A program made the translations under genes and the position numbers. From IMG/VR virus record IMGVR_UViG_3300046777_000949, positions 1-35,508 of that record: a DNA stretch of 35,508 nucleotides, one strand, 5' to 3'. This stretch comes from a virus. The notes under the pieces were generated by a model. The model worked only from the letters and a program-made list of their open reading frames with translations, searched no databases and had not been told where the DNA came from. Every line of letters begins with the position of its first letter. Positions within the stretch are counted from its first letter, which is position 1. This document shows positions 10,179-24,817 of the stretch, one piece after another.

Positions 10179-10207
10179 ATTATACACTATGTTTGTCTAT
10201 TTGTCAA
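10179..10207 (-). promoter_or_regulatory. Perfect sigma-70 promoter for the leftward (packaging and virion) unit
   Basis: On the minus strand, TTGACA (10207-10202) is followed after exactly 17 bases by TATAAT (10184-10179), a full match to consensus in both boxes and spacing. It points at the terminase genes with a leader of about 280 bases. No other strong promoter is seen upstream of 9890. The capsid promoter at 5930-5902 has the same architecture. Confidence 0.85.
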
Positions 10208-10505: not shown

Positions 10506-10546
10506 GGTGTCGGAATATTGACACTAGAGGTGTCGGAAAAGCGACA
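10506..10546. repeat. Two TGT-N10-ACA inverted repeats (possible enhancer sites)
   Basis: Site 1 is TGTCGGAATATTGACA (10508-10523) and site 2 is TGTCGGAAAAGCGACA (10531-10546). Both share the direct word GGTGTCGGAA and are spaced 23 bp centre to centre. The TGT-N10-ACA layout is that of NifA upstream activator sites, and dyads of this kind are typical of sigma-54 enhancer-binding proteins. They lie about 200-230 bases ahead of the expected rightward start site. That they are bound by such a protein is an inference. Confidence 0.5.
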
Positions 10547-10616: not shown

Positions 10617-10674
10617 AGCGGCAATATTTGCCTATGTAGCGGCAAAATTTACCATAGCACCGGCAATATTTACC
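10617..10674. repeat. Three 16-bp iteron-like repeats, 21-bp period
   Basis: AGCGGCAATATTTGCC (10617-10632), AGCGGCAAAATTTACC (10638-10653) and ACCGGCAATATTTACC (10659-10674) are spaced exactly 21 bp apart. The core GGCAAWATTTRCC is nearly palindromic, so each copy could bind a dimer on the same face of the helix. The array sits roughly 70-125 bases ahead of the expected rightward start, fitting an upstream activating sequence. It could equally be a set of replication iterons or operators. Confidence 0.7.
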
Positions 10675-10715: not shown

Positions 10716-10733
10716 CTGGCATGCGAGTTGCAT
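10716..10733 (+). promoter_or_regulatory. Sigma-54-like (-24/-12) promoter for the rightward early unit
   Basis: CTGGCATGCGAGTTGCAT contains GG at 10718-10719 and GC at 10730-10731 with the obligatory 10 bases between, inside TGGCATG-N4-TTGCA. It agrees with the known sigma-54 consensus (TGGCACG-N4-TTGCW) at all key positions except C to T in the -24 element. It points at the first early gene 41 bases downstream. I see no sigma-70 promoter with good boxes in the 250 bases before 10774. Upstream repeats sit where enhancer-binding proteins act. Activity is unproven. Confidence 0.55.
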
Positions 10734-10773
10734 GTATAAAGTATCTCAACCAACCAACTAAGGACAAACAATC

Positions 10774-11010
10774 ATGACAAACACTGTTCAATTAGAAGTA
10801 ACAGAGCAAGAACTAGCATCTATCTTGTATGCCTTACAAGATCGTTCTAATGCGATCCTTGAGCGTATGCGAGCTAATAACCTTCATTCGAGTCTTAAGG
10901 AAAGTAAGCGAGTAGATATAAACATAATCCTTGAAAGACAGTTCAAAGAAACTACTAATGCACTTGCTCAAGTAGAAAAGACAATCGAAACCTCTTACAG
11001 TTATAACTAA
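10774..11010 (+). CDS. Hypothetical early protein, first gene of the rightward unit
   Basis: This 78-residue, helical, charged protein (QLEVTEQELASILYALQDRS near the start) probably contains a coiled coil. AAGGA lies about 9 bases upstream of the ATG. As the first gene behind the presumed early promoter it is likely to be expressed at once on infection and is a candidate host-takeover factor. No known family is recognised. Confidence 0.65.
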   Translation: MTNTVQLEVTEQELASILYALQDRSNAILERMRANNLHSSLKESKRVDINIILERQFKETTNALAQVEKTIETSYSYN

Positions 11011-11022: not shown

Positions 11023-11223
11023 ATGAAAGAACAACTCATTCACATCACCTACAAAGACCAATACGGTATTCATTCATATTCATTAGAAGGCTTTGTAGAT
11101 GGTGACTTTGTAGGCTTTGCAAGTGCATCTAAGGACAGAGTTCAACATGAGCTTGCATGGTATCAAGAGAACTTCAAAGGCTTGCCAGTAACATTCACCA
11201 CAATTACAGAGGAATTAAAATGA
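11023..11223 (+). CDS. Hypothetical early protein
   Basis: This 66-residue protein has aromatic residues and the pattern GFVDGDFVGFASASKDRVQHE. AAGGA precedes its ATG by 7-8 bases. Its stop overlaps the ATG of the next micro-gene (ATGA). The function is unknown. Confidence 0.6.
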   Translation: MKEQLIHITYKDQYGIHSYSLEGFVDGDFVGFASASKDRVQHELAWYQENFKGLPVTFTTITEELK

Positions 11224-11403: not shown

Positions 11404-11727
11404 ATGATTATGACTAAAGAAAACTTTGTGCAACACATTGCTGACACTCTCACCAATGGCTTCGGTGAAGATGAATTAAACGTTGACGGTGAGCCAATGA
11501 CAGCCTTTGATTACTTAGGCGATGCTTTAGACATTGAATACATTGTAAATAGTAAGGCTGAGTATTTAGGTGCACGTGTACTGGTGGCCTTCGGAGGGCC
11601 TAATATTTGGATCAACACACGTACAAACACCGTAGAGGGTCACTGGTGGGCTGACTCATGCAAGGCAACATTCACTGACAATATTGGCCTTGATGAAGCC
11701 CTTGAAGAACTTTGGAATTGCCGTTAA
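11404..11727 (+). CDS. Conserved-looking early protein of unknown function
   Basis: This 107-residue acidic protein has either ATG 11404 or ATG 11410 as start; AAGGA is 3-9 bases ahead. The central motif VAFGGPNIWINTRTNTVEGHW, followed by an acidic C-terminal helix (GLDEALEELW), resembles a small protein seen in several phages and prophages. The function is unknown. It is preceded by the hairpin-rich gap at 11316-11403. Confidence 0.65.
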   Translation: MIMTKENFVQHIADTLTNGFGEDELNVDGEPMTAFDYLGDALDIEYIVNSKAEYLGARVLVAFGGPNIWINTRTNTVEGHWWADSCKATFTDNIGLDEALEELWNCR

Positions 11728-11753
11728 TCTGTACTATATAGGGAAACAGTAAA

Positions 11754-11921
11754 ATGACTTATTATGATTATGAATTCAAGAGGCTGGGTGACAATGCTCA
11801 AAAGGCCGATCTCAAGCTTATCTCAGATAAAGGTGAAACTAGATGGCTGACTGTATCGGCTGATAAGGTCAAGGCTATATTGGCAATTCTTAATATTGAT
11901 GAAGAGGATATAAACAAATGA
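11754..11921 (+). CDS. Hypothetical 55-residue protein
   Basis: The frame begins MTYYDYEFKRLG and includes TRWLTVSADKVKAILAIL. GGGAAAC lies a few bases ahead of the ATG, and the stop overlaps the next ATG (ATGA). It is predicted to be a small alpha/beta protein. The function is unknown. Confidence 0.6.
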   Translation: MTYYDYEFKRLGDNAQKADLKLISDKGETRWLTVSADKVKAILAILNIDEEDINK

Positions 11922-12133
11922 ATACTAAACATTCACAGATTATTGAATGTGCCGAAGAGTTAGGATATATCTTAGAACCTGCAGACGCTGAGGATGTTCT
12001 ATCAGGCTCGTTTGATGGTGAGACTGTCTACGGGGCAGTCACAGATTGGCTCAATGCTTTTGAAACATGTGCCGACTTTGATGCACCTAAATATAAACAA
12101 ATTAAGATTAAATGGGAGATGGTTACAAAATGA
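11918..12133 (+). CDS. Hypothetical 71-residue acidic protein
   Basis: The protein is mainly helical and acidic (EPADAEDVLSGSFDGETVYG in the middle). It overlaps both neighbours by four bases (ATGA), so it is a coupled member of the early operon. No family is recognised. Confidence 0.6.
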   Translation: MNTKHSQIIECAEELGYILEPADAEDVLSGSFDGETVYGAVTDWLNAFETCADFDAPKYKQIKIKWEMVTK

Positions 12134-12546
12134 TTAAACACTTTAACGTTGAAGTAAACAAACACAAACTAGAACTGATTGTCGATTTAGAGCGCAATCA
12201 TTGGTATGTTTTATTTCCTAAATACGGGCAATACGCTAGTGGAGACATTGGGCACGGTAGTTTTGAACGTAACCATAATTTTCTAATGATTGGCAAACGT
12301 GAATATTCGCTTGTCTTTGATTGTGACGATAAACGCAGGCATTGGGAGGGATGGTCATTCTTTGATGAGGCTAAGCAGGATTATTTACCCGATACTGGAA
12401 GGCTTGACGGAAAGTCAGTGTGGAAGGTCTACAATGACAAGGGAAAGCTGATTCACACGTTGTTTTCAGAGGAACAAGCAGAATTTCAGGTTCTTTTTGA
12501 GAAACAACAAGGTAAAACTGTCACATTTAAAAAGGTTAAGCAGTAA
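12130..12546 (+). CDS. Hypothetical 138-residue early protein
   Basis: The start is taken at 12130 (MIKHFNVEV), overlapping the previous stop, with GGAG 11 bases ahead. A start at 12112 is possible but overlaps more. The protein is rich in aromatic and charged residues (NHWYVLFPKYGQYASGD, then RRHWEGWSFFDEAKQDY) and looks like a beta-rich globular domain. The function is unknown. Confidence 0.6.
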   Translation: MIKHFNVEVNKHKLELIVDLERNHWYVLFPKYGQYASGDIGHGSFERNHNFLMIGKREYSLVFDCDDKRRHWEGWSFFDEAKQDYLPDTGRLDGKSVWKVYNDKGKLIHTLFSEEQAEFQVLFEKQQGKTVTFKKVKQ

Positions 12547-12547
12547 C

Positions 12548-12700
12548 ATGTACAAAATTGTCTCAATATCCTCAGGGATTGTCGTTGCAACCTTTAATAA
12601 GTTATCATTTGCTCAGGATTGGCTTGCTGATAATAACAACCTTAACGGTGAGCCTGCTAACCTTTATCAACTGATCATAAATAGGAAACCTAAACCATGA
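12548..12700 (+). CDS. Hypothetical 50-residue protein
   Basis: The start is taken at ATG 12548 (MYKIVSISSGIVV), directly after the upstream stop. The pattern VVATFNKLSFAQDWLADNN suggests a small alpha/beta fold. The ribosome binding site is weak, suggesting re-initiation. The next gene overlaps by four bases. Confidence 0.5.
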   Translation: MYKIVSISSGIVVATFNKLSFAQDWLADNNNLNGEPANLYQLIINRKPKP

Positions 12701-12954
12701 GCACTTATAAATTCAATACTTTATTGGCTGACAGTAGAGCTTTGGTCACTGTCACATGTGAAATTGACTTAGATGACGATTATGTAGACTTCAAAGATGT
12801 GGTCTATGAGGGCAATAGTGTCTTTGACGTACTGTCTGACAATCAATGGACTGAACTTGAATGGGATGCTTTAAAGTCCTACAAAGAAGAGTTAGTTGAA
12901 CAACAGACCATTGACTACGATCTAAGTATCGAAGATACGGAAAACCATGCTTAG
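12697..12954 (+). CDS. Hypothetical 85-residue acidic protein
   Basis: The protein is very acidic (CEIDLDDDYVDFKDVVYEG, C-terminal SIEDTEN). Such acidic early proteins are often DNA mimics or inhibitors of host enzymes, but nothing here proves this. It contains DALKSYKEEL, whose codons are partly repeated 91 bases downstream (see 12947-13009). Confidence 0.6.
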   Translation: MSTYKFNTLLADSRALVTVTCEIDLDDDYVDFKDVVYEGNSVFDVLSDNQWTELEWDALKSYKEELVEQQTIDYDLSIEDTENHA

Positions 12955-13009
12955 AAGGGCTTTAAAGTCCTATTTAAGACGACTTATTCAACATTTAATA
13001 GCGAGGTAG
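12947..13009 (+). CDS. Possible 20-residue basic leader peptide
   Basis: This short frame starts inside the end of the previous gene, ends 2 bases before the next ATG and encodes a strongly basic amphipathic peptide (six Arg, one Lys). Fourteen bases (GCTTTAAAGTCCTA, 12959-12972) repeat those at 12868-12881 in the same frame (ALKSY). No strong ribosome binding site is present. It may be chance or a coupling peptide. Confidence 0.2.
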   Translation: MLRRALKSYLRRLIQHLIAR

Positions 13010-13011
13010 CT

Positions 13012-13227
13012 ATGTTATCAGAAATTGACTTAAAAGACTGGAATGAACAACCTTCAAAGCCCTTGTACGATGTCCCTAATGAGACACCTATAAAGACTCA
13101 CGTTGGTCTGTTATGGTTCAAGCACATAGACGGGATGTACAGTCTCTGCTATGATGCTGATGGCAAAACTGTGCACTTAGCAGCTTGGAGTACAGTTAAC
13201 CCCTTTAAAAGGAAGGATAAACAATGA
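13012..13227 (+). CDS. Hypothetical 71-residue protein
   Basis: The protein begins MLSEIDLKDWNEQPSK and has THVGLLWFKHIDGMYSLCYD in the middle. It overlaps the next gene by four bases. No family is recognised. It belongs to the coupled early operon. Confidence 0.55.
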   Translation: MLSEIDLKDWNEQPSKPLYDVPNETPIKTHVGLLWFKHIDGMYSLCYDADGKTVHLAAWSTVNPFKRKDKQ

Positions 13228-13460
13228 AATGCTTATGTTGCGATAGACTACTGACTGACTTTGAAGCTACCCGTAAACATGCAGTTACCGGTATGTTTAT
13301 AGACCTATGTCAACAATGCTTTAAAACTGTACAGATGGACGCTAACCTACCTACAAAGGATAGGAGAGACTTGATCTCAGAGGATGACATCGATGATAGT
13401 GTTGAAGATGAAGACAGTGATAGTCACATTGGTGACAACATTGACAGGGAGGGCTATTGA
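13224..13460 (+). CDS. Small zinc-finger-like protein with acidic tail
   Basis: This 78-residue protein has CLCC at residues 3-6 and a second CQQC pair near residues 29-32, forming a likely zinc ribbon (C-x2-C ... C-x2-C). The C-terminal third is nearly all Asp, Glu and Ser (DDIDDSVEDEDSD). Small zinc ribbons of this kind are common in early regions of T7-like phages; an interaction with host transcription is possible but unproven. It is the last gene before the structured gap at 13461-13660. Confidence 0.6.
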   Translation: MKCLCCDRLLTDFEATRKHAVTGMFIDLCQQCFKTVQMDANLPTKDRRDLISEDDIDDSVEDEDSDSHIGDNIDREGY

Positions 13461-13485
13461 CAATCTGTACAAAGTATGCTACCCT
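13457..13485 (+). promoter_or_regulatory. Possible sigma-70 promoter before the second early block
   Basis: TTGACA (13457-13462) is followed after 17 bases by TACCCT (13480-13485), with the extended word TATGC in front as in the capsid promoter. The -35 is perfect and the -10 is weak (3 of 6). It would give extra transcription of the 13661 gene and the primase. Confidence 0.35.
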
Positions 13486-13486
13486 T

Positions 13487-13605
13487 ACTTTAAAGTAACT
13501 ACTGAGTAACTATGATGTTTCATAGAAGTTACATAGTAGTTAAATACACTATTAAAGTACCTTTATATATTTACTTATAAAGTAACTTTAAAGTGCCGAA
13601 GGCAC
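13487..13605. repeat. Structured intergenic region upstream of the primase block (possible origin)
   Basis: The gap 13461-13660 has no gene. It contains a long imperfect hairpin at 13496-13542: TAACTACT pairs with AGTAGTTA, GTAACT with AGTTAC and ATGA with TCAT, interrupted by a 2x2 internal loop and a 3-base bulge. The 10-bp palindrome ACTTTAAAGT flanks it at 13487-13496 and 13585-13594 and occurs again at 10271-10280 in the main control region. A second small hairpin (GTGCC GAA GGCAC) is at 13593-13605. The sequence is AT-rich. A replication origin or a regulator site is possible. Confidence 0.5.
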
Positions 13606-13660
13606 GGAAAGTGTAGTAGGACTGTAAACATTAGACACTAACCCATTGAAAGGATAATTT

Positions 13661-13855
13661 ATGTCTATAGAACTAATGGTTGATGATGATGATATGGATG
13701 TCGTTAAGTATGAATGTTGGTATTGGTCTGTCATTGACAGTATGGCTGACTTAATCATGAACAATGGACGTGATAAGGTCATGGCTGATGTAGCTGAAAC
13801 TGTACTTAAGCGCTTAGGTGAAGGTTATGTCTTACCCGTGGATGAACATCCATGA
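13661..13855 (+). CDS. Hypothetical 64-residue acidic protein
   Basis: AAAGGA lies about 8 bases before the ATG. The N-terminus contains a run of Asp (VDDDDMDVV) and is followed by an aromatic CWYWSVIDS and a helical C-terminus. It is the first gene after the structured gap. The function is unknown. Confidence 0.55.
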   Translation: MSIELMVDDDDMDVVKYECWYWSVIDSMADLIMNNGRDKVMADVAETVLKRLGEGYVLPVDEHP

Positions 13856-13914
13856 TGATGATGACATTGTTTGTCGTTATAGTAACTTTAATTAAACTGA
13901 TTGTGAGCAAGTAA
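13852..13914 (+). CDS. 20-residue membrane micro-peptide
   Basis: The frame starts with four Met codons and continues with a purely hydrophobic stretch (TLFVVIVTLIKLIV). It overlaps the previous stop (ATGA) and the next start (TAATG), filling the gap exactly, which argues for translation. It would be a single-span inner membrane peptide. Confidence 0.45.
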   Translation: MMMMTLFVVIVTLIKLIVSK

Positions 13915-14117
13915 TGGACATTGACCCAAACAAACCGTGGCCCTTCCCGTCTGTACCTTTGGGAGGTGACAGTAGCTTAAAAGCCTTAGCTGATACTTTA
14001 TCGATGCTGGAGGATTTCACAGCTTTTCAGCTCAGAGGGGACATCTACTATGGATACCCTGATAAAAAGGCTCTAAAGACCATTGAAGGCCTTAGAAAGG
14101 TACTAAATGAAGCTTAG
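13914..14117 (+). CDS. Hypothetical 67-residue protein
   Basis: The protein begins MDIDPNKPWPFPSVPLGG and has a helical C-terminal half. It ends inside the first codons of the primase/helicase gene. The function is unknown; the coupling suggests a replication-linked role. Confidence 0.55.
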   Translation: MDIDPNKPWPFPSVPLGGDSSLKALADTLSMLEDFTAFQLRGDIYYGYPDKKALKTIEGLRKVLNEA

Positions 14118-15735
14118 CATAGTACGCAAACCTAAGCCTGAGTCAAAGTTTGTAAAGCATATACCCTGTGAGTACTGCGGTAGCTCAGATGCAGGTGCTT
14201 TATACGATGACAATCACACCTATTGCTTTAACTGCCATGAAACACATCATGAGAATGAATATGATGATTTCACAGTTAAGCAAGATGCAGTTAAACCTAG
14301 GAAAACTCAGATGCTAGACATCAAGGGACAGATTAAAGCGATACCTGACAGAGGTATCAGTCAACAAACATGTGAGAAATATGGAGTAACTCAAGAAAAT
14401 GGACAACACTTTTATCCTTACACTGACGATGCCGGAGGAGTTGTTGCAGCAAAACTTAGAAGAGTGGCAGACAAAACTTTCAGTATTCTTGGAACATTCA
14501 CGAATGCTCGGTTATTCGGTCAACAGCTCTTTCACGCTGGTGGCAAGGCCGTCACCATCACTGAAGGAGAACTTGATGCTCTAGCAGCTTTTCAGATGAA
14601 TGGTAGCCTCTACCCTGTGGTGTCGGTCAGGAACGGTGCACAGGCAGCATTGAAGGACTGCAAGGCACAGTATGAGTGGCTAAACAGCTTTGAATCAATA
14701 GTGATCTGCTTCGATGCTGATGAACCGGGTAAGAAGGCCGCTAAAGAGGTAGCTGAACTGTTCGGTCAGAAGGCTAAGATTGTGAAACATTTGAGTGGCT
14801 ACAAAGATGCCTGTGACTACCTCATTGCTGGCGCTACCAAAGAGTTTGTGAACGAGTGGTGGAGAGCTGAGGTTTACATTCCAGATGGGATCATTAATGC
14901 AGCTTCACTGTGGGAGGAAGTGATTAAACCTGAGGCTAAGGCTGAGGCTATGTACCCTTGGAAGGGCTTGAATAAGCTTCTCTACGGTATGAGGCCATCG
15001 GAGTTAGTGACAGTCACTGCTGGCTCAGGACTAGGTAAGAGTCAATTCTTACGTGAGATCTTGTTTAACATTCTGAACACTACGAAGTGGAACATTGGAG
15101 GGTTATTCCTCGAAGAGTCAACACGTAAGACAGCTAGAAGTATCATGAGCTTACATGCCAACAAACTGTTACACCTGCCTGATACACCAACAACTGAAGA
15201 GGAGCTTAAAGATGCATTTGACAACACTCTTGGATCTAACCGCATTTACCTTTTCGATCATTTCGGTAGTTCTGATGTGGATAATATTACTAACAGAATA
15301 CGGTACATGGCAAAAGCGTGTGACTGTCGTGTGGTTTTTCTCGACCATATCTCTATCGTGGTTAGTGGGCAGGATCTTGGAGATGAGCGTAAGGCTATTG
15401 ATAACATGATGACGAAGCTTCGCACACTGGTTCAAGAGTTGGAGATCACTCTGATCTGTGTGAGTCACCTTCGTAGGCCTCAAGGCAATGCAGGACACGA
15501 GGATGGACAATCAGTATCGTTGTCTCAGCTCAGAGGTTCAGGATCAATTGCTCAGCTGTCAGATGCTGTGATTACATTGGAACGTAATAGCATGGCTGAG
15601 GATGAGAATGAGAGACACATGACTAAGATTGCAGTGGCTAAGAATCGTTACAATGGCTATACAGGCCCAGCGTGTACTTTGAAGTACGACATGGAGACTG
15701 GACGTATGATGGAGATACAAGATGAGACGCTTTAG
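14107..15735 (+). CDS. T7 gp4-type DNA primase/helicase
   Basis: This 542-residue, full-length bifunctional protein has an N-terminal zinc-binding primase motif (C21, C24, C40, C43). The TOPRIM domain follows, with E153 (TITEGELDA) and D203/D205 (ICFDADEPG). The RecA-like hexameric helicase has Walker A GSGLGKS (306-312), Walker B FLDH (D413) and H454 in CVSHLRRP. It unwinds DNA 5' to 3' at the fork and primes the lagging strand. The start overlaps the preceding stop, with AAAGG 6 bases ahead. All catalytic residues are present. Confidence 0.95.
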   Translation: MKLSIVRKPKPESKFVKHIPCEYCGSSDAGALYDDNHTYCFNCHETHHENEYDDFTVKQDAVKPRKTQMLDIKGQIKAIPDRGISQQTCEKYGVTQENGQHFYPYTDDAGGVVAAKLRRVADKTFSILGTFTNARLFGQQLFHAGGKAVTITEGELDALAAFQMNGSLYPVVSVRNGAQAALKDCKAQYEWLNSFESIVICFDADEPGKKAAKEVAELFGQKAKIVKHLSGYKDACDYLIAGATKEFVNEWWRAEVYIPDGIINAASLWEEVIKPEAKAEAMYPWKGLNKLLYGMRPSELVTVTAGSGLGKSQFLREILFNILNTTKWNIGGLFLEESTRKTARSIMSLHANKLLHLPDTPTTEEELKDAFDNTLGSNRIYLFDHFGSSDVDNITNRIRYMAKACDCRVVFLDHISIVVSGQDLGDERKAIDNMMTKLRTLVQELEITLICVSHLRRPQGNAGHEDGQSVSLSQLRGSGSIAQLSDAVITLERNSMAEDENERHMTKIAVAKNRYNGYTGPACTLKYDMETGRMMEIQDETL

Positions 15736-15756
15736 TCGAATGAAGGAGGATATGTT

Positions 15757-15996
15757 ATGAGACAAGATGAAATCATTGAGATGGCTAAACAAGCCACTAT
15801 AGGTGGGGATGAGATTGCTGTATTTACAGTGTCTGAACTTATGAAGTTTGCCAAGTTAGTAGCGCAACACGAGCGTGAGGCGTGTGCAAAGGTGTGTGAG
15901 GAAATGCGAACCTATGTTGGCAGAAATAATGCTGTTACTCAGTCATCCGCCCAAGATTGCGCCACCGCCATCCGAGCAAGGGGACAATCGTTATGA
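15757..15996 (+). CDS. Small accessory protein (EREACAKVCEEM type)
   Basis: This 79-residue protein has an excellent ribosome binding site (AAGGAGG). The C-terminal half, with EREACAKVCEEM and DCATAIRARG, is a pattern I recognise from many phages and prophages of Betaproteobacteria, where it occurs with other small accessory genes. The function is unknown. Its presence is one hint about the host group. Confidence 0.6.
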   Translation: MRQDEIIEMAKQATIGGDEIAVFTVSELMKFAKLVAQHEREACAKVCEEMRTYVGRNNAVTQSSAQDCATAIRARGQSL

Positions 15997-16139
15997 GCGC
16001 ATGGTTAATCGCTGTAGTAGGGGTAGTCTACACTGTTGTAGCTATTGACCTACTCGTTAAAGGTAACACTGGCTTAGGTATAGCCTTCGTAGGTTATGCT
16101 CTAGGGAATGTAGGATTATATCTGGAGGCTGCAAAATGA
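15993..16139 (+). CDS. Small membrane protein, two spans
   Basis: This 48-residue protein starts at ATG 15993 (MSAWLIAVVGVV), overlapping the previous stop. It has two hydrophobic segments separated by LLVKGNTGLG. It is too short for an enzyme. The context does not suggest a lysis role, and membrane-based superinfection exclusion is one possibility. Confidence 0.55.
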   Translation: MSAWLIAVVGVVYTVVAIDLLVKGNTGLGIAFVGYALGNVGLYLEAAK

Positions 16140-16429
16140 CAGGTACTATACCTAAGTGGATGCAAAGGATGATGGACATTGGAGTTTCTCCAGAAGTCAT
16201 TGAAGAGAGAGCTAATCGTAGACGCATGAAGGAACGTGAGTGGGCTCAGAGGAATAGAGACATCAAAGCTGCACATAAAAGAGCTTACAGGGCTAAGAAG
16301 AATAAAACTGTAGGGACTGAATCGGGAACTGTTGGAGTAGCTATTAAGTATACCTACCGTCCTAATTGGAAGGAAGCTCCTGTGTATCAATGTACTGAGT
16401 TGAACTATAGAGGGAAACAAGCATCATGA
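16136..16429 (+). CDS. Hypothetical 97-residue basic protein
   Basis: The protein is rich in Arg and Lys, with a long basic helix (ERANRRRMKEREWAQRNRD) in the middle, and probably binds nucleic acid. GGAGG precedes its ATG, which overlaps the previous stop (ATGA). No family is recognised. Confidence 0.6.
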   Translation: MTGTIPKWMQRMMDIGVSPEVIEERANRRRMKEREWAQRNRDIKAAHKRAYRAKKNKTVGTESGTVGVAIKYTYRPNWKEAPVYQCTELNYRGKQAS

Positions 16430-16836
16430 CTAAAGACCAAGTACGAAGTACTGAAGAAGCATTACGCCTTGCATTGGAGGCGTTGGAATATGAAGCACAA
16501 AAAGGAAATGACAATGCTTATCAGTTTGAAAGAGAAGCCATTAAAGCCGCACTAGAAGCGAAGGATGAGCCTGTGGCGTGGATGCGTACAAGTGGAACTG
16601 GGTCGCCTGTTGTGACAGAAGCATTGTTGGCTGAAATGCCAGAGATGCGATGGAATTTTCAACAGCCCCTTTACACCACCCCACCACAGCGGCAATGGGT
16701 AGGGCTGACTGATGGGGAGATAGAAGTAATAGAGGCTTTAAAAGCACCGCCAGTACATCCTGATTTTATTGATTGTGATGATTGGATGGATTTTGCCAGA
16801 GCCATTGAAACCAAATTAAAGGAGAAAAACACATGA
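16426..16836 (+). CDS. Accessory protein (EPVAWM ... PLYTTPP type)
   Basis: This 136-residue protein has an N-terminal acidic helix (EEALRLALEALEYEAQKG), then DEPVAWMRTSG, QQPLYTTPPQRQWVGLTDGE and a C-terminal helix. This modular layout is familiar from small accessory genes of phages infecting Burkholderiales-type bacteria; its role is unknown. The region is visibly richer in G and C than its neighbours. The last five residues (KEKNT) are encoded by the ribosome binding site of the next gene, and the same ending occurs in the next protein. Confidence 0.6.
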   Translation: MTKDQVRSTEEALRLALEALEYEAQKGNDNAYQFEREAIKAALEAKDEPVAWMRTSGTGSPVVTEALLAEMPEMRWNFQQPLYTTPPQRQWVGLTDGEIEVIEALKAPPVHPDFIDCDDWMDFARAIETKLKEKNT

Positions 16837-17027
16837 AATACTCACAGTCCAAACCGCTTGTTGAAGAGTTGATGAGTGTTGCAATACTGTTTCATGGAAG
16901 CCCAACCATGTTGCGCGAAAGAATAGCGGACGCTGTTGACAGGCATATCCCTGACCTTGACCCCGCGTGTATGGAGCGTGGTTGCCCCTGCATTGAAACA
17001 TTCCCACCAAAGGAGAAGAACACATGA
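16833..17027 (+). CDS. Hypothetical 64-residue protein
   Basis: The protein begins MKYSQSKPLVEELMSVAI and contains DLDPACMERGCPCIETFPP, with three cysteines. It ends in KEKNT like its upstream neighbour, because both junctions share AAAGGAGAARAACACATGA. It may bind a metal. No function is known. Confidence 0.55.
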   Translation: MKYSQSKPLVEELMSVAILFHGSPTMLRERIADAVDRHIPDLDPACMERGCPCIETFPPKEKNT

Positions 17028-17230
17028 TTCACACCGATGAAGACGATGAGTTCGAGCGTATTGAGCGTGAGAATGCTATGAAGGGTCAGCCTTATCACTT
17101 TGAGATTTATGTTTCTCCTTCTCAAAGAAACGAAGTATTAGAGGAAGTGGCTAAAGAGTTTGACAAGATGAAAGCGTTTGGCACTACCGCTGAATCATTC
17201 GCTGTATTTGTAAGAGGCATGAAAAAATGA
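17024..17230 (+). CDS. Hypothetical 68-residue protein
   Basis: The protein is acidic and helical (HTDEDDEFERIERENAMKG at the start). It has a strong AGGAG site and four-base overlaps on both sides. The function is unknown. Confidence 0.55.
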   Translation: MIHTDEDDEFERIERENAMKGQPYHFEIYVSPSQRNEVLEEVAKEFDKMKAFGTTAESFAVFVRGMKK

Positions 17231-17409
17231 TTGACTTAGATAAGATAGCGGGTAGAATGTTGGACTTGGAAACGAAGTACTATGAACTTCAAGATAAGTA
17301 TCAATTACTGATCCATCACTATGAAGACCTAAAGGCAGAGTATGAAGCGTATTGTGTTAGACATCGAGACAACATTAGATCACAACACGATCTGGATGGT
17401 AGTAACTAA
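17227..17409 (+). CDS. Hypothetical 60-residue coiled-coil protein
   Basis: The protein is almost entirely a charged helix with a heptad-like pattern (LETKYYELQDKYQLLIHHYE). The last 68 bases overlap the start of the DNA polymerase gene in another frame. This long overlap leaves some doubt about the C-terminus, but the start overlaps the previous stop in the usual way. Confidence 0.5.
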   Translation: MIDLDKIAGRMLDLETKYYELQDKYQLLIHHYEDLKAEYEAYCVRHRDNIRSQHDLDGSN

Positions 17410-19063
17410 AGACATTGATACTGGAGAAGTTAACGTATGGAAAGCAGCAAGCAACCTCGTGGAGTATTTAAAGGACACTACGTTGATAGTAGCCCACAAC
17501 GGCATAAGCTTCGATTTTCCGATATTGAACAAGCTTTGGAGTACGAAGATTCGCTTGAGCCAAGTGTACGATACACTGATAGCGTCAAGGTTGTTAAATC
17601 CCTCAATAGAGAACGGGCACAGCTTAGACGCTTGGGGCGAGAGGATGAAGACACTCAAGAAAGTTGACTACAAAAGGATCTGGTTATGGTTAATGGACAA
17701 ACAACAAGAGGAGTATAAAGGTGAGTGCTTTGATGTTCCTCACATGGCTCTTCTGGAGTATTATTGCATTAGGGACGTTGAGGTCACTTGCAATCTTTAT
17801 AAGCATCTTACTGATGAATTTACTAAGAAAGGCTTTTCACAAGAAAGCATTGATCTTGAACATAAGGTAGCTTCTATCATATCTGAACAGGAACGTAATG
17901 GCTTCAAACTTGACTTACCCTTCGCAACCTGCTTACTTGCTGACATCAAAGGAAAGATGGCAGGAATATATGAGCAGATGCAAGAGAGATGGCCTCCCGT
18001 TGTCACTCCAAGGTTCCACAAGACCCATGGAAGACCTATCCAAGATTCCGTTGATACTTTCAATCCCGGAAGCAGGAAACAGATCGGAGAAAAGTTGATG
18101 GAGTTGGGATGGAAGCCAAAGGACTTTACTGAGAAGGGTCAACCTATTGTCGATGAGACAGTCTTAGCTAATGTTAAGATTCCTGAGGCTCAGATGATCG
18201 CTGAATACTTGATGCTACAGAAACGTGTAGCTCAGATTGAAAGCTGGTTAGAAGCTGTAGGCAAGGACGGTAGAGTTCATGGTAAGGTTATAACGAATGG
18301 AGCTGTTACAGGTAGGATGACACACAGTAGTCCTAACATGGCACAGATTCCTAATTCAGGTAGCATCTATGGAAAAGAATGTAGAGAATGTTGGACTGTG
18401 GAAGGCGGTAACGTATTGGTTGGTTGTGACGCTAGTGGCCTTGAGCTTCGGATGCTTGCACATTACATGAAAGATGAGAACTATGTTAAAACAGTCACGG
18501 AAGGTTCCTCCAAGGACGGCACTGATGTACATACGCAGAATCAGAAAGCTGCGGGGCTTCAAACAAGGGATCAAGCAAAGACCTTTATTTACGCCTTCCT
18601 ATACGGTGCAGGGCCAGCTAAGATTGGTTCCATTGTCGGTGGTAATGCTAAGGCGGGACAGAAGCTTATTGATTCCTTCCTTGCAAACACACCTGCCTTA
18701 CAGCGTCTTAGAAGTACGGTTGGTAGATATGCGGGTAAGGGCTTTGTACCGGGGCTTGATGGTCGTAAGATATGGGTCAGGTCGGAACATGCTGCCCTCA
18801 ATTCGCTCCTTCAAGGGGCTGGTGCTATCGTAATGAAGAAAGCTTTAGTACTATTTTATGATAAGACTAAGGCAAATAAGTGGCCTGTGAAGCTAGTAGC
18901 TAATGTTCACGATGAATTTCAGCTTGAAGTTCCTAAGGAATATGCTACAATAGTAGGTGAGGCTGCTAAGAGAAGTATCGTTGAAGCTGGGGAGTACTTT
19001 AAGCTTCGTTGTCCACTAGACGGGGAGTATAAAATTGGTGCAAACTGGCGTGAAACACACTAA
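17342..19063 (+). CDS. DNA polymerase, T7/PolA family with 3'-5' exonuclease
   Basis: The protein has 573 residues. The exonuclease motifs are DIET (D7, E9), AHNGISFDFP (D58) and YCIRD (D145), so proofreading should work. Polymerase motif A is GCDASGLELR (D363), motif B is RDQAKTFIYAFLYGAG (R409, K413, Y417) and motif C is NVHDEF (D524, E525). It is about 130 residues shorter than T7 gp5 (704), probably lacking the thioredoxin-binding loop. Tyr417 is at the position of T7 Tyr526 (E. coli Phe762). The start at 17342 is set by the exonuclease motif right at the N-terminus and AAAGG 8 bases ahead. It replicates the phage genome with the primase/helicase and SSB. Confidence 0.94.
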   Translation: MKRIVLDIETTLDHNTIWMVVTKDIDTGEVNVWKAASNLVEYLKDTTLIVAHNGISFDFPILNKLWSTKIRLSQVYDTLIASRLLNPSIENGHSLDAWGERMKTLKKVDYKRIWLWLMDKQQEEYKGECFDVPHMALLEYYCIRDVEVTCNLYKHLTDEFTKKGFSQESIDLEHKVASIISEQERNGFKLDLPFATCLLADIKGKMAGIYEQMQERWPPVVTPRFHKTHGRPIQDSVDTFNPGSRKQIGEKLMELGWKPKDFTEKGQPIVDETVLANVKIPEAQMIAEYLMLQKRVAQIESWLEAVGKDGRVHGKVITNGAVTGRMTHSSPNMAQIPNSGSIYGKECRECWTVEGGNVLVGCDASGLELRMLAHYMKDENYVKTVTEGSSKDGTDVHTQNQKAAGLQTRDQAKTFIYAFLYGAGPAKIGSIVGGNAKAGQKLIDSFLANTPALQRLRSTVGRYAGKGFVPGLDGRKIWVRSEHAALNSLLQGAGAIVMKKALVLFYDKTKANKWPVKLVANVHDEFQLEVPKEYATIVGEAAKRSIVEAGEYFKLRCPLDGEYKIGANWRETH

Positions 19064-19229
19064 TGTAAAACAGATTATCTTTGACGTTGAAGGAGAGAAC
19101 TTTAAGGTCAAGATGGTAGGTGACATGGATCTTGAAGAGGTATACACCATACTGGTATCAGCGGTGATGTACTTAGAAGACATGGCACAAGGGCTTTCAG
19201 TTCACCCTTCATCAAATGAACTACACTAA
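19035..19229 (+). CDS. Hypothetical 64-residue protein, TTG start
   Basis: The protein contains KQIIFDVEGENFKVKMVGD and an acidic, helical C-terminus (LEEVYTILVSAVMYLED). No ATG is available. TTG at 19035 has GGGGAG 7 bases ahead, inside the end of the polymerase gene; GTG at 19050 is the alternative. The function is unknown. Confidence 0.5.
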   Translation: MVQTGVKHTNVKQIIFDVEGENFKVKMVGDMDLEEVYTILVSAVMYLEDMAQGLSVHPSSNELH

Positions 19230-19240
19230 AGAGGAGTATA

Positions 19241-19399
19241 ATGGTATTTAACCTAGAACCTAATGAAGCTGCTTTCATTGTTCGTGTGGTTGGACAACTT
19301 CCTACAGAGTCAGGTGCATTCCCGTTGCATCAGAAGCTGGTGGAGCAGTTCCAAGCTCAAGACAAACAACAAGAAGTAGCACCTGTAACAGCTGAGTAA
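19241..19399 (+). CDS. Small conserved phage protein, 52 residues
   Basis: AGAGGAG lies 6 bases before the ATG. The sequence EPNEAAFIVRVVGQLPTESG, followed by FPLHQKLVEQFQAQ, is a pattern I recognise from short proteins in replication regions of many phages. Its biochemical role is not known. Confidence 0.65.
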   Translation: MVFNLEPNEAAFIVRVVGQLPTESGAFPLHQKLVEQFQAQDKQQEVAPVTAE

Positions 19400-19427
19400 A
19401 TTTAAACATTAACTAAAGGAAAATGAA

Positions 19428-19862
19428 ATGAGTATTGATAGCATCAAACCCGTAAAAGTCGCTGGTGAACTGTACTGGAGTAACTGGATGAAAGAGTACA
19501 ACAAGAAGTTCAACGAGGCTAACGATAAGTATGAGTGCACATTGGGACAATTGAGTGATGCAGCCTGTGCTAAGCTGGAAGAGCTTGGTATCAAGTTGAA
19601 AGATAAAGACACAATGGGTAAGTACATTGTCGGTAAATCTAAGTTCTTGTTTGAGCCTGTCGATGAAGAGGGCAACCCTGTAGATATCTCTAAGATTGGT
19701 AACGGTACTAAGTGTTATGCACTGGTGTCCTCATACCGCCACAAGATGTCAGCTAAGTTCGGTGCTGCACCATCTATTAAGAAGCTGGTGATCACTGAGT
19801 TGAAAGTTTACTCTCCTGAGGGTTCACCTGAGGAACAAGAAACAGCGGATGATGTCCTCTAA
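19428..19862 (+). CDS. Single-stranded DNA-binding protein, T7 gp2.5-like
   Basis: This 144-residue protein lies between the polymerase and the exonuclease. The N-terminal region with KVAGELYWSNWMKEYN, the central KSKFLFEP and the end of the domain at VITELKVYSPEG fit a DUF2815/gp2.5-like OB fold. The acidic C-terminal tail (EEQETADDVL) is characteristic of SSBs that contact polymerase and helicase. The assignment is from pattern and position. Its end overlaps the next gene by 14 bases. Confidence 0.7.
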   Translation: MSIDSIKPVKVAGELYWSNWMKEYNKKFNEANDKYECTLGQLSDAACAKLEELGIKLKDKDTMGKYIVGKSKFLFEPVDEEGNPVDISKIGNGTKCYALVSSYRHKMSAKFGAAPSIKKLVITELKVYSPEGSPEEQETADDVL

Positions 19863-20568
19863 TCAGGATAGACCTACAGAAGCCATCGTTGATGCTGATT
19901 TTTTAGTATACAAGGTTGGCTTCTCCAATGAGGACGAAGAGGAACGGTGGGCACTAAATCGACTCACAGAGTGGTTTACCGACATAATCTATATGCGCTT
20001 GAAGTGTGATGACTACAGAGCTTGGATTACAGGTAAGACTAACTTTAGATTTGAGATAGCTACCACAGTTCCTTACAAGGGGAATCGTAAAGATGCTCCT
20101 AAGCCTAAGCACTATGATGCTCTTCGCAAACATCTAATGAAGCTCGGTGCTAAGATGTCAGAGGGTGAAGAGGCTGATGACGCTGTAGGCATAGCATCCA
20201 CTGAAGGTAACTATTGGATCGTACACGTAGATAAGGATCTCGATCAGTTACCGGGATGGCACTACAATCCTGTAAAGGATGAAGAATACTATGTTACTGA
20301 GTTTGAAGGTTTGTACAGTTTCTACAAACAGATACTGACAGGCGATAGGGTTGATAACATAGAAGGTATCAGAGGTATTGGCCCTGTAAAGGCTGATAAG
20401 ATATTGAAAGATTGTACAACTGAAAGGGAACTATATGAAGCTTGTATCAAAGCTTATGACGGCAATACTGACAGGGTACTGGAGAACGGTCAGCTCTTAT
20501 GGTTAAGAAGGCAACCAAACCAAACGTGGCAGCCTCCTTCAGTCTCGCAGGAGCCGTCTGGACAGTAG
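19849..20568 (+). CDS. 5'-3' exonuclease, T7 gp6-like
   Basis: This 239-residue protein of the FEN/PIN family has acidic metal ligands D15/D17 (AIVDADF), E108/D110/D111 (GEEADD) and D128/D130 (HVDKDLDQLPG). D166/D169 follow (LTGDRVDNI), directly ahead of the helix-hairpin-helix segment IRGIGPVKADKIL (174-186). YKGNR (76-80) is the helical arch entry. It removes RNA primers and degrades host DNA. Its start overlaps the SSB gene; the first Met codon is doubled. Confidence 0.9.
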   Translation: MMSSNQDRPTEAIVDADFLVYKVGFSNEDEEERWALNRLTEWFTDIIYMRLKCDDYRAWITGKTNFRFEIATTVPYKGNRKDAPKPKHYDALRKHLMKLGAKMSEGEEADDAVGIASTEGNYWIVHVDKDLDQLPGWHYNPVKDEEYYVTEFEGLYSFYKQILTGDRVDNIEGIRGIGPVKADKILKDCTTERELYEACIKAYDGNTDRVLENGQLLWLRRQPNQTWQPPSVSQEPSGQ

Positions 20569-20786
20569 AGTTTGTTAACCACTTAGATGATATGGGTAAG
20601 TGTGATTCTGAGAAGCAGACCATCTCAATTCGAAGTGGTATGAATAAACAAGCTACTGAGCAAACCTTCTATCATGAGTTAGTACATGCCATTATGTTCA
20701 CAATGGGTAAGCTAAATCACGATGAAGAGTTTACAGATGCCTTTGGAGCTTTGCTGCATCAGTATCAAAGGACTAAAGTAGTATGA
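20499..20786 (+). CDS. Small zinc metallopeptidase-like protein (HExxH)
   Basis: This 95-residue protein has the motif HELVH (H59, E60, H63) within TFYHELVHAIMFTMG, and a second acidic helix (NHDEEFTDAFG) that may give the third ligand. It resembles the short phage proteins related to SprT/ImmA-type peptidases that occur next to replication genes. The beginning overlaps the exonuclease gene by 70 bases in another frame. The substrate is unknown; host regulatory proteins are possible targets. Confidence 0.65.
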   Translation: MVKKATKPNVAASFSLAGAVWTVEFVNHLDDMGKCDSEKQTISIRSGMNKQATEQTFYHELVHAIMFTMGKLNHDEEFTDAFGALLHQYQRTKVV

Positions 20787-21220
20787 AGCCTAAACGTAAA
20801 AAACCACTATCAGTTAGACAAGTAGCTTTAAAGCATGGCTTTAGATCTGGCTTAGAAGATAAGATAGCTGAGAACTTAACCAATCTAGGTATTCCATTTG
20901 AGTATGAGAAGCTTGTGATTGATTATGTTCAACCAGCTAAGGCTAGAAAGTACACTCCTGACTTTGTACTTCTAAACAACGGTATCATCATTGAAAGTAA
21001 GGGAAGATTCTTAACAGCGGATAGACAGAAACACCTAATGATTCAAGATCTGTATCCTGAGTTAGATATTAGGTTTGTCTTTAGTAACTCTAAAGCTAAG
21101 CTTTCAAAGCTAAGTCAGACAACATATGGTATGTGGTGTGATAAGCATGGGTTCAAGTACGCTGATAAAGATATTCCTATATCATGGTTAAACGAACGAG
21201 GAACTAAACATGTTAAATAA
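20783..21220 (+). CDS. Endonuclease I, T7 gp3-like Holliday junction resolvase
   Basis: This 145-residue protein is close to the 149 of T7 gp3. The catalytic set is E25 (SGLEDKI), D60 (YTPDF), E71 and K73 (IIIESKGRF), the PD-(D/E)xK layout of this family. It cuts branched DNA to resolve concatemers and degrades host DNA with the exonuclease. The start overlaps the previous stop. Confidence 0.92.
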   Translation: MKPKRKKPLSVRQVALKHGFRSGLEDKIAENLTNLGIPFEYEKLVIDYVQPAKARKYTPDFVLLNNGIIIESKGRFLTADRQKHLMIQDLYPELDIRFVFSNSKAKLSKLSQTTYGMWCDKHGFKYADKDIPISWLNERGTKHVK

Positions 21221-21476
21221 TTTGATTAAAGCAATGGAAAGCTCTCAAGAACTTCAATGGGCTTGGGAAGAGTTTACAGATGCTATTATCGTAGATAAAC
21301 TTAAAGAGACTTACATCACTCACTACAATGGAGACTTTAGTGGACACCCTGAAGATGTACAGTTCAGTAAAGAACTTGCAAAGGCTTGTGATTTAGTTCT
21401 AAGCTACTACATGGTTTCATTCGATCATCAGCAGTTCATTGAAGAGGTCAAGAAACATGAACGTAGACCTGATTAA
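21210..21476 (+). CDS. Hypothetical 88-residue protein
   Basis: The protein is acidic and helical, beginning MLNNLIKAMESSQELQWAWEE. It overlaps its neighbours on both sides. It is conserved-looking but unidentified. Confidence 0.55.
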   Translation: MLNNLIKAMESSQELQWAWEEFTDAIIVDKLKETYITHYNGDFSGHPEDVQFSKELAKACDLVLSYYMVSFDHQQFIEEVKKHERRPD

Positions 21477-21639
21477 AGAGCATGAAGATGGTAGTGCTAC
21501 TTTTCAGTTTGACTTAACAGCTGATGAAGCTCAGGCACTCTTAAGCTACGGCATCCTAGAAGCTATCAAAGCTGGTATACGTAGTGGTGAGAAGATAACT
21601 GTTGAAGGAGTTGATCTTGAAGATATTAGTGATACCTGA
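21457..21639 (+). CDS. Small conserved phage protein, 60 residues
   Basis: The start is taken at 21457 (MNVDLIKEHEDGSATFQFDL) with AGAGG about 10 bases ahead. The sequence LTADEAQALLSYGILEAIKAG matches a short family that often neighbours the metallophosphoesterase and DUF3310 genes in phages. The function is unknown. Confidence 0.65.
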   Translation: MNVDLIKEHEDGSATFQFDLTADEAQALLSYGILEAIKAGIRSGEKITVEGVDLEDISDT

Positions 21640-22378
21640 TTGTCAAGTTAAAGAGGGCGTACCTTTAGAGCACCTGACATGGGCTGGTAAAGCTATTGTC
21701 GATTACAAGCCTGATGTAGTTGTTAACCTAGGTGACTTTGCTGACATGCCAAGCCTTAGTAGTCACGACATCAAAGGAAGTAAGTACTTTGAAGGTCTAC
21801 GCTACAAGAAGGACATTGAAGCTGCTAAGGAGGCCATGAAGTTGTTGTTAGCTCCTTTGAGAGAAGCTCAGAAAACTCAGAAGGAATCCAAACACAAGGT
21901 ATACAAGCCTCGTATGGTGATGACTCTAGGGAATCATGAGAACCGTATTGATAGAGCTGTTAACAATAACCCAACTCTAGAGGGTTTGATCTCAACTAAG
22001 GATTTAGACTATGAGAAAGACTGGGAAGTACATGGCTTCTTACATCCTGTTTTTATTAATGGGGTGGGTTTTAATCATTACTGGCCTGTTGGGGCTATGG
22101 GACGACCAGCTGGGGCAGCTAGTGCCATTATTAACAAGTTACATATGTCTTGTGTCGCTGGGCATCAGCAGGGCAAGCAAATTGCCTATGGAAAGCGAGC
22201 TGATGGCAAACCTATTTGTGCTATCATTGTGGGCAGTTACTATCTACACGATGAGTCTTATATGGATCAGCTTAGTAACCGTCATTGGCGTGGCTTACTG
22301 ATGATGAATGAAGTACAAGATGGTCACTTCGATGAAATGTTCTTAAGTGTTGAATACCTTGGGAGGAAATATGGATAA
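21617..22378 (+). CDS. Metallophosphoesterase, TTG start
   Basis: This 253-residue protein is a calcineurin-like phosphoesterase, with metal motifs VIPDCQ (D8), NLGDFAD (D40), LGNHENR (N106, H107) and a later GHQQGKQ. The usual DxH of the first motif is DxQ here. The start is TTG at 21617 because AAGGAG lies exactly 6 bases ahead and the protein then begins MKILVIPD; a TTG at 21602 lies ahead of that site. The substrate is unknown. In phages the gene goes with nucleotide metabolism and DNA processing. Confidence 0.82.
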   Translation: MKILVIPDCQVKEGVPLEHLTWAGKAIVDYKPDVVVNLGDFADMPSLSSHDIKGSKYFEGLRYKKDIEAAKEAMKLLLAPLREAQKTQKESKHKVYKPRMVMTLGNHENRIDRAVNNNPTLEGLISTKDLDYEKDWEVHGFLHPVFINGVGFNHYWPVGAMGRPAGAASAIINKLHMSCVAGHQQGKQIAYGKRADGKPICAIIVGSYYLHDESYMDQLSNRHWRGLLMMNEVQDGHFDEMFLSVEYLGRKYG

Positions 22379-22772
22379 CAATGACAATAAAAAATGTAAG
22401 ACTTGCTTTTACAGTGAACTATATGGCGGTATTCATCCGTGTGTAGATTGTTTTAACTATGATAAATGGGTTAAACGTGACATCTACATTCGTGATGCAG
22501 CTCAGCCTTTAAGTGAAGCTGTTAAGGAATGGGTTGACTCAGACCAAAGTGAATGGGCTAATGATAATGTTCATAAGCCTAAACACTATACTGAGCATCC
22601 CTCAGGTATTGAATGTATCCAAGTTACAGAACACATGGGCTTTAACTTAGGTAATGCAATCAAATATATCTGGCGCTGTGACTTGAAGAAAGATGCCATT
22701 GAAGACCTTAAGAAGGCCAAGTGGTATATTGACAGAGAGATCAACAAACGTGAACGCAACAATAACATTTGA
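22371..22772 (+). CDS. DUF3310 (SaV-like) protein with N-terminal zinc knuckle
   Basis: This 133-residue protein starts at ATG 22371 (MDNNDNKKCK), with GGGAGGA 4-5 bases ahead. It has C-K-T-C and C-V-D-C pairs (residues of about 9-30) and then VHKPKHYTEHPSGIECIQV, followed by NAIKYIWRCDLK and a helical end. This is the typical DUF3310 core, widespread in phages next to nucleotide metabolism genes. The function is unknown. It overlaps the metallophosphoesterase end and the next gene. Confidence 0.82.
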   Translation: MDNNDNKKCKTCFYSELYGGIHPCVDCFNYDKWVKRDIYIRDAAQPLSEAVKEWVDSDQSEWANDNVHKPKHYTEHPSGIECIQVTEHMGFNLGNAIKYIWRCDLKKDAIEDLKKAKWYIDREINKRERNNNI

Positions 22773-22911
22773 AGAACTGAAAGAGGCTCTCAAACGTTTA
22801 GATGAGATCACACTCTTGGAACTGCTTGGACTCCAGAGTGATGATCTTGTCGAAAGATTTGATGATGTAATTGAAAAGAAACAAGAATACTTAACAAAGG
22901 AAATAGACTAA
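22750..22911 (+). CDS. Small conserved phage protein, GTG start
   Basis: This 53-residue protein starts at GTG 22750, with AGAGAGA about 9 bases ahead. The in-frame ATG at 22693 lies deep in the previous gene. The sequence EELKEALKRLDEITLLELL, followed by DLVERFDDVIEKKQEYL, is familiar from short phage proteins beside DUF3310. The function is unknown. Confidence 0.6.
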   Translation: MNATITFEELKEALKRLDEITLLELLGLQSDDLVERFDDVIEKKQEYLTKEID

Positions 22912-22912
22912 T

Positions 22913-24817
22913 ATGACAGCTGTAATGACACCCTACCAAGAATACATCGGTAAAAGCCGTTATTCACGTTACTTGGATGATAAAGGCCGTAGAGAGCACT
23001 GGCCTGAGACTGTTACCCGCTACTTTGACTTCATGACTAAGCACTTGAAAGACAAGCACAACTACGACATCCCTGCAGATCTAAAGTCTGAGCTTACATC
23101 TGCTGTGACTAACCTTGAAGTGATGCCTTCAATGCGTAGCATCATGACAGCTGGTGACGCGCTTGAACGACAGAATGTGGCAGGCTATAACTGTTCATAC
23201 TTACCTATTGATGATCCTAAAGCATTCGATGAGGCTATGTATATTCTCCTGTGCGGAACTGGTGTAGGCTTTAGTGTGGAGCAAAAGTATGTATCTAAGT
23301 TACCTGAGATCCCAACTGAGTTGTACAATAGTGGCACTGTCATTAATGTTAAGGACTCCAAAGAGGGATGGGCTAAGGCTCTCCGACAAGTTATTGCCTT
23401 GCTATACGCTGGAGAAGTGCCTAAGTGGGATGTTTCGAGTGTACGTCCAGCAGGTACGAGGCTTAAAACTTTCGGAGGCAGAGCGTCAGGACCCGAGCCG
23501 CTTGTCGACCTTTTCAAGTATGTGGTTGCAAAGTTCCGTGGAGCGGTTGGACGGAAGCTCACCTCGCTTGAGGCACATGATATTCTATGTAAGGTCGGAG
23601 AGGTCGTGGTTGTCGGTGGTGTACGACGATCAGCGATGATCTCACTGTCTGATTTGAGTGATGATCGTATGGCTCACGCTAAAGCTGGTAACTGGTGGGA
23701 CGGTAATGGTCAACGTGCTTTGGCTAACAACAGTGCCATCTACGAAGTTAAACCTGACGTAGGTAAGTTCATGCGTGAATGGTCAAGTATTTATGAATCA
23801 CACTCTGGAGAGCGAGGTATTTTTAATCGTTATGCAAGTGAACTTCAAGCAGCTAAGAATGGACGTAGGGAATTGGGTAAAGAATGGGGTACAAACCCTT
23901 GCAGTGAGATTATCCTTAGACCTTATCAATTTTGTAATCTGTCTTCTGTTATTGTTCGGAGCGATGATAGTGTGGATACTCTACGCAATAAGGTGCGCTT
24001 GGCTACTATTCTGGGGACTTTTCAATCGACAATGACTCACTTCCCGTACCTTCGTAAGGTGTGGCAGACGAACACTGAAGAGGAGCGTTTGTTGGGTGTG
24101 TCAATGACAGGTATCTTGGATAATGTATTGTTGAATGACCCTGATAACGCTGAATTACCAGCTATCTTGGAAGGACTTAAGAATGTGGCTATTGATACTA
24201 ACGCTGAGTTTGCTGACGCTATTGGCATTAATCGAAGTGCTGCCATTACTGCAATTAAGCCCGAGGGCACTGTCTCTCAGCTTACAGGCACTGCTAGTGG
24301 CATCCACCCTCAGCACAGTCAGTACTTTATTCGTCGTGTACGGTCTGATAACAAAGATCCTCTGACTGACTTCTTGAAAGCTCAAGGATTTCCTGCTGAG
24401 CCTTGTGTTATGAAGCCTGAAAGTACTACGGTGTTCAGCTTCCCAATGCGAGTTGAGAAGGGTGCTGTACTGCGTGAGGACTTGAATGCTATTAAGCACT
24501 TGAGACTGTGGTTATTGTTCCAGCGTCACTACTGTGAGCATAAACCATCAGTGACTATCTCAGTGAATGAGACTGAGTGGCCTGAAGTTGGGGCTTGGGT
24601 GTGGAATAACTTTGATGAGATTACCGGTGTGAGTTTCCTACCTATGGATGGAGGCACATACAGACAAGCTCCTTATGAGTCCATGAACGAGTTTGAGTAT
24701 CACGACATGGTGTCTAAGATGCCTTTAGGTATTGACTGGGATAAGTTCATTGAACGTACCGATAACGTTGAAGGTGCTCAACAGCTAGCTTGTGTAGCAG
24801 GTGTCTGTGAGATATGA
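22913..24817 (+). CDS. Ribonucleotide reductase, class II, adenosylcobalamin-dependent
   Basis: This 634-residue enzyme is of the monomeric RTPR type. The key residues are C94 (GYNCSY) and C341 as the active-site redox pair, C330 in NPCSEI as thiyl radical carrier with E332, and C627/C632 as the C-terminal shuttle pair (CX4C near the last residue). It makes deoxynucleotides from ribonucleotides using vitamin B12 and a host thioredoxin-type reductant. There is no separate radical-generating subunit gene, which fits class II. The gene is near the end of the rightward operon and supplies substrate for replication. The host must have or take up cobalamin. Confidence 0.93.
   Translation: MTAVMTPYQEYIGKSRYSRYLDDKGRREHWPETVTRYFDFMTKHLKDKHNYDIPADLKSELTSAVTNLEVMPSMRSIMTAGDALERQNVAGYNCSYLPIDDPKAFDEAMYILLCGTGVGFSVEQKYVSKLPEIPTELYNSGTVINVKDSKEGWAKALRQVIALLYAGEVPKWDVSSVRPAGTRLKTFGGRASGPEPLVDLFKYVVAKFRGAVGRKLTSLEAHDILCKVGEVVVVGGVRRSAMISLSDLSDDRMAHAKAGNWWDGNGQRALANNSAIYEVKPDVGKFMREWSSIYESHSGERGIFNRYASELQAAKNGRRELGKEWGTNPCSEIILRPYQFCNLSSVIVRSDDSVDTLRNKVRLATILGTFQSTMTHFPYLRKVWQTNTEEERLLGVSMTGILDNVLLNDPDNAELPAILEGLKNVAIDTNAEFADAIGINRSAAITAIKPEGTVSQLTGTASGIHPQHSQYFIRRVRSDNKDPLTDFLKAQGFPAEPCVMKPESTTVFSFPMRVEKGAVLREDLNAIKHLRLWLLFQRHYCEHKPSVTISVNETEWPEVGAWVWNNFDEITGVSFLPMDGGTYRQAPYESMNEFEYHDMVSKMPLGIDWDKFIERTDNVEGAQQLACVAGVCEI

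Follow-up and report, generated by a model that had tools for sequence, protein, structure and literature searches.

The early gene unit and the elements in front of it

The DNA analyzed here (the window, 35,508 nucleotides) comes from an uncultured, water-borne phage and forms a circular virus record whose terminal repeat measures 127 bp. Its rightward genes begin with two small genes of unknown function, the first coding for 78 amino acids (10774-11010, + strand) and the second for 66 (11023-11223, +). Homologues of the first lie behind the same promoter core in the relatives L019, L040 and L085, and the second accompanies the sigma-54-type promoter in relatives. The remaining rightward unit (11404-24817, +) carries genes for a primase-helicase (14107-15735), a DNA polymerase (17342-19063), an endonuclease I (20783-21220) and a ribonucleotide reductase (22913-24817), all on the + strand; dependence of the whole unit on a single promoter is not shown. 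On the leftward side lie the genes for terminase, portal, major head protein and tail fibres. A sigma-70 promoter with perfect TTGACA-17-TATAAT boxes, at 10179-10207 (- strand), points toward these structural genes and was present in 17 of the 37 relatives compared.

The ORFs scanned, in which small ORFs were incompletely covered, included no single-subunit RNA polymerase or sigma factor, and host RNA polymerase therefore presumably initiates transcription. No ORF exceeded 678 amino acids and no RNA polymerase family was detected in the scanned ORFs, so the phage-encoded polymerase expected with promoters of the T7/SP6 type was lacking among them. The sequence GTTAAATACACTATTAAAG occurs in two identical copies, at 13539-13557 (+) toward the primase genes and at 10078-10060 (-) toward the leftward genes; it resembles an SP6-type promoter, although none of the genes seen codes for a phage RNA polymerase. 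The host could not be identified: a search of genome contigs with the primase-helicase gave no match, and a search through isolate phages gave only distant ones, the nearest primase-helicases (from Pelagibacter, Roseobacter, cyanobacterial and other phages) being only about 43-51% identical.

The + strand at 10716-10733 reads CTGGCATGCGAGTTGCAT, the sequence for which the initial annotation had proposed a sigma-54-type promoter. Within it, the putative -24/-12 core TGGCATGCGAGTTGCA (10717-10732, +) has GG at 10718-10719 and GC at 10730-10731, separated by 10 bases in the TGGCAC-N5-TTGC context typical of sigma-54 promoters, and differs from TGGCACGNNNNTTGCW at one position only (T for consensus C). 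The spacing, the single departure from the consensus, and the strand and position given in that annotation were thus confirmed, the site ending 41 nt before the first rightward ORF. It is the sole match with at most one mismatch on either strand of the window. Chance would supply 0.22 such matches per window on both strands, in keeping with the earlier estimate of well under one per genome; since 19% of simulated windows also held at least one (P about 0.19), the lone match is suggestive, not decisive. The absence of a good sigma-70 promoter nearby was likewise upheld, as no sigma-70-like site scoring at least 9 of 12 was found on the + strand between 10357 and 10773, and no TTGACA/TATAAT-like boxes near the gene start were conserved at the core. 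The use of TTGCAT as a -35 box or TATAAA as a -10 box was ruled out because neither is conserved in relatives, and a terminator on the - strand was ruled out because its 5-bp stem is absent from L040 and L085.

At sigma-54 promoters transcription usually starts some 12 nt past the GC of the -12 box. On this geometry the transcription start is predicted, not mapped, at 10742-10744 (+). The ribosome-binding site TAAGGA (10759-10764, +) lies in a conserved leader, AACCAACCAACTAAGGA, which is common to many relatives with the sigma-54-type promoter.

A sigma-54 promoter requires an enhancer-binding protein. Upstream of the core we observed three enhancer-like palindromes of the form CGGCAA-N3-TTRCC on the + strand, GGCAATATTTGCC (10620-10632), GGCAAAATTTACC (10641-10653) and GGCAATATTTACC (10662-10674), each with a C before it, with centres 91, 70 and 49 bp before the -24 box. 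They are spaced exactly 21 bp apart, or two helical turns. Although two of the three carry one mismatch (TTACC), they are the only sites in the window with at most one mismatch to the palindrome (0.88 expected), and a pair at 21 bp appeared in 0 of 300 simulations. The palindromes are kept in L014, L033, L040 and L049, and the third site reads GGCAATATTTGCC in four relatives. The more distant L247 and L248 have similar arrays, and their cores, TGGCACGGGGTTTGCA and TGGCACGGGAGTTGCA, fit the full consensus. Upstream sites of the enhancer type, which a sigma-54 promoter should possess, are therefore present here as phased palindromes and in sister phages as NtrC boxes, without binding data for either.

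Further upstream, at 10508-10546, are two palindromes of the form TGTCGGAA-N-TTGACA-like (TGTC-N8-GACA), 23 bp apart, which also occur in two or three copies in L040, L095 and L099 and form a further regulator array whose reader is unknown. Two TGT-N10-ACA stretches in the same interval were not used as NifA-type sites, not being conserved across group A.

Conservation and replacement of the promoter in relatives

Relatives were collected from virus contigs, 80 through the primase-helicase and 22 loci through the second early gene. Where the module is retained, YTGGCAY-N5-TTGCA stands at the corresponding position, but the spacers vary and the flanks belong to several kinds that are unrelated to one another. 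Among seven representatives TGGCA and TTGC were identical in all pairwise comparisons, whereas agreement was 33% in the flanks and 40% in the spacer. The motif itself had served to find some of the comparison phages; in this set this holds for L117, L154 and L247, whose agreement in the core is thus partly a product of selection. L085, L102 and L075 were found by protein, and the window site had been picked in the initial annotation. The motif scan that yielded L108-L211 mixes likely promoters with chance matches and was not counted as evidence.

Thirty-five relatives had a readable region, of which 8 carried the sigma-54-type core, 25 another arrangement, none both and 2 neither. The other arrangement, upstream of the first rightward gene in L002, L012, L013, L038, L058 and 20 others, consists of an 11-bp direct repeat TGTAAGGTTCG-TGTAAGG with a GATAAT-like box after it. 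It is sigma-70-like and resembles promoters activated by regulators of the OmpR/PhoB family. Conservation of GG-N10-GC in close relatives, on which the earlier reading had been made to depend, held in part: the core is retained amid diverged flanks in 8 of the 35, as expected of a sigma-54 promoter, while in 25 the GG and GC are missing. Since in these the whole promoter has been replaced by one of another type, the loss reflects module exchange, not decay. Judged from the sequences, the promoter is exchanged between close relatives as a module.

Putative flagellar- and nitrogen-type enhancers

Bacterial and archaeal genomes were scanned for GGCAA-N3-TTGCC followed after 40-70 nt by TGGCACR-N4-TTGCW. 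The scan gave at least 120 matches, those listed including many in alphaproteobacteria and some in betaproteobacteria. The downstream protein, taken as the largest ORF within 1.6 kb, was obtained for 109 of the matches listed, and at least 40 of these 109 proteins were flagellar by Pfam (FlgE/F/G D1 domain 27, flagellin 5, FlgD 5, FlgI 3). Among the matches listed, the host palindromes preferred a C before and a G after, their distances to the -24 box clustered at about 52, 57-63 and 69-74 bp, and second sites were most often at -21 bp. All three window palindromes have the C, one stands at 70 bp, and the spacing is 21 bp; the window thus has the palindrome and the like spacing in common with host flagellar sigma-54 promoters. 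In three genomes examined more closely, the palindrome was lacking at exact sigma-54 boxes before a pilin-like and a transporter-like gene, and flagellar sigma-54 boxes had it in exact form in some cases and not in others (few cases, genes named by eye). Class-wide genome searches with the pattern could not serve as a control because they gave too few matches (4/240 and 2/185).

FlbD is an RpoN-dependent flagellar activator acting at ftr sites (PMC3930126), and FlrC and FleR have a similar role in Vibrio and Pseudomonas (PMC7064773). Because the same palindrome and core, with the same spacing and flanking C, precede mainly flagellar genes in hosts, the window is better read as having a flagellar-type promoter than a nutrient switch. 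Most likely the phage has acquired a sigma-54 promoter of the host's flagellar (FlbD/FlrC-type) kind, an inference made without binding data and without a scrambled-palindrome control in the genome scan.

The published NtrC box is TGCACCAnnnTGGTGCA (PMC8743547). In 14 relatives (group B) ATCACCAACATGGTGCA is found at -174, with two weaker copies at -143 and -122. It has two mismatches to the published box, and two or fewer were reached in 0 of 2000 simulated regions of equal length. The group B sequences are mutually related and do not represent fourteen independent events. Weaker copies are also present in L075, at -115, -94 and -74; this is an 80% relative that had been retrieved through its primase. 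The same core is, at the level of DNA sequence, joined to a nitrogen-type enhancer in close relatives. In the window, the upstream box that marks NtrC-activated promoters was not found (best match 5 mismatches), and NtrC boxes were ruled out as its activator sites. The suggestion of the initial annotation that early expression is tied to nutrient state accordingly does not suit the window, with its flagellar-type sites, but fits the sister phages, where three NtrC boxes replace the flagellar-type array.

Group B, L247 and L248 also carry two to five DnaA-box-like TGTGGATAAC repeats between enhancer and promoter. Together with a GC-skew minimum or turn near 10-11 kb in the window, these repeats suggest a replication origin in this region.

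The NtrC box followed after 50-80 nt by the core was found in 30 virus contigs of about 15 kinds (by eye), two of them with the match ahead of terminase-looking genes; a scrambled NtrC box gave 4 matches of two kinds. In L223 and L229 an NtrC box and sigma-54 core lie a few hundred bases ahead of terminase-like genes (named by eye), an arrangement that would place packaging genes under nitrogen control. The flagellar-type array and core are present in L246, whose genes, including terminase and portal, have no similarity to those of the window, and also in the likewise unrelated L371 and L373; motif matches in L372, L374 and L375 look like coincidences inside genes. An early protein of L371 is homologous to one behind an NtrC-type promoter in L215, L232 and L238, and hence an enhancer swap seems to have occurred in a second lineage. 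It is fairly probable that unrelated phages use host sigma-54 promoters to run their replication or early genes, the enhancer modules (flagellar- or NtrC-type) being exchangeable. If so, a phage lineage could switch the host state it awaits through the exchange of a short DNA segment. The virus contigs L209 (12 sites in 10.4 kb), L185, L153 and L244 contain numerous perfect TGGCAY-R-N4-TTGCW boxes, often arranged in tandem or pointing toward one another.

Proposed control of the replication genes and known systems

The reading of the site as a sigma-54-type promoter is supported by comparison, the core being kept amid diverged flanks and activator-type palindromes lying upstream; transcription and rpoN dependence are inferred. 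We propose, with a probability of roughly three in four, a sigma-54 promoter core for the rightward replication genes, worked by a host activator of the flagellar kind on the three palindromes, in the absence of transcript or binding data and with the host unidentified. Host RNA polymerase with sigma-54 (RpoN) would bind the -24/-12 core, and a host enhancer-binding protein of the FlbD/FlrC/FleR kind would bind the three 21-bp-phased CGGCAA-N3-TTGCC palindromes and open the promoter complex with ATP. Both binding steps and the timing are inferred, and neither rpoN nor the regulator is proven in the host. The phage would thereby have its replication genes read like a host rod, hook or flagellin gene, and their expression should therefore track the activity of the host flagellar regulator. 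In sister phages, NtrC boxes in place of the flagellar-type array would make these genes follow nitrogen state. The usual view is that phages begin early transcription at promoters of the sigma-70 type that are constitutively active. If a promoter instead remained closed until a host activator driven by ATP came on, infection would depend on motility or nitrogen state, and host physiology could be linked, at the level of sequence, to the outcome of infection in natural waters.

The array could instead be read by another NtrC-family protein such as NtrX, the promoter remaining sigma-54-dependent and the signal being nitrogen, redox or envelope state. The motif CAAN3-5TTG, bound by NtrX in Brucella and Sinorhizobium (PMC9223101), is contained in GGCAA-N3-TTGCC, and many of the host matches listed were not flagellar by our crude downstream test. 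However, that motif is shorter and its spacing varies, whereas the full palindrome with its outer GG..CC and C..G goes with flagellar genes, and we consider this possibility unlikely. That the core is a chance match, and the genes are started from a sigma-70 promoter further upstream, is hardly credible. Weak sigma-70-like sites do exist several hundred bp upstream, most close relatives have a sigma-70-like arrangement, and the 0.22 matches expected per window leave room for coincidence; conservation of the core, despite diverged flanks, in relatives that were not collected by the motif, the palindrome array, and the lack of a conserved -35/-10 in this promoter group all speak against it.

The repeats might also be iterons or DnaA-linked origin elements, with the TGGCA/TTGCA core a site for a replication protein or repressor. 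Direct repeats of 21 bp are typical of iterons, the GC-skew turn and the DnaA-box-like repeats of relatives fall in this region, and the core contains a short inverted repeat, CATGC-N5-GCATG. This inverted repeat is not kept in relatives, though, and the core is asymmetric in all of them; moreover, array and core recur in unrelated phages and before bacterial flagellar genes, which are no origins. We regard this explanation as very doubtful and retain the flagellar-type sigma-54 promoter.

The initial annotation knew of no well-established phage system of this kind. We also found no phage early promoter of the sigma-54 and enhancer kind in the literature searched, but subscription literature lay mostly outside the search and novelty is unproven. 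The nearest text describes a Pectobacterium phage with a sigma-54-like protein for which support is weak (PMC7693777). The phage shock (psp) operon, under PspF and sigma-54, links phage infection to sigma-54 (PMC3844500). Unlike the window site, psp belongs to the host, as an operon of its response, and is no phage promoter. In cyanophages, promoters that carry host NtcA or PhoB sites likewise place phage genes under a host nutrient regulator, but they act with sigma-70-type polymerase, while in the window phage the activator would be obligatory and of the sigma-54 kind. NtrC-activated promoters such as glnA resemble those of the group B sisters, which have three TGCACCAnnnTGGTGCA-like boxes upstream of the same core, and differ from the window, which has no NtrC box. 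The closest likeness is to flagellar promoters under FlbD (alphaproteobacteria) or FlrC/FleR (gammaproteobacteria), which like the phage combine a -24/-12 core with CGGCAA-N3-TTGCCG upstream, the palindromes being helically phased at about 50-75 bp with a second site at 21 bp; the phage differs from these in having three sites instead of one or two and in driving replication genes.
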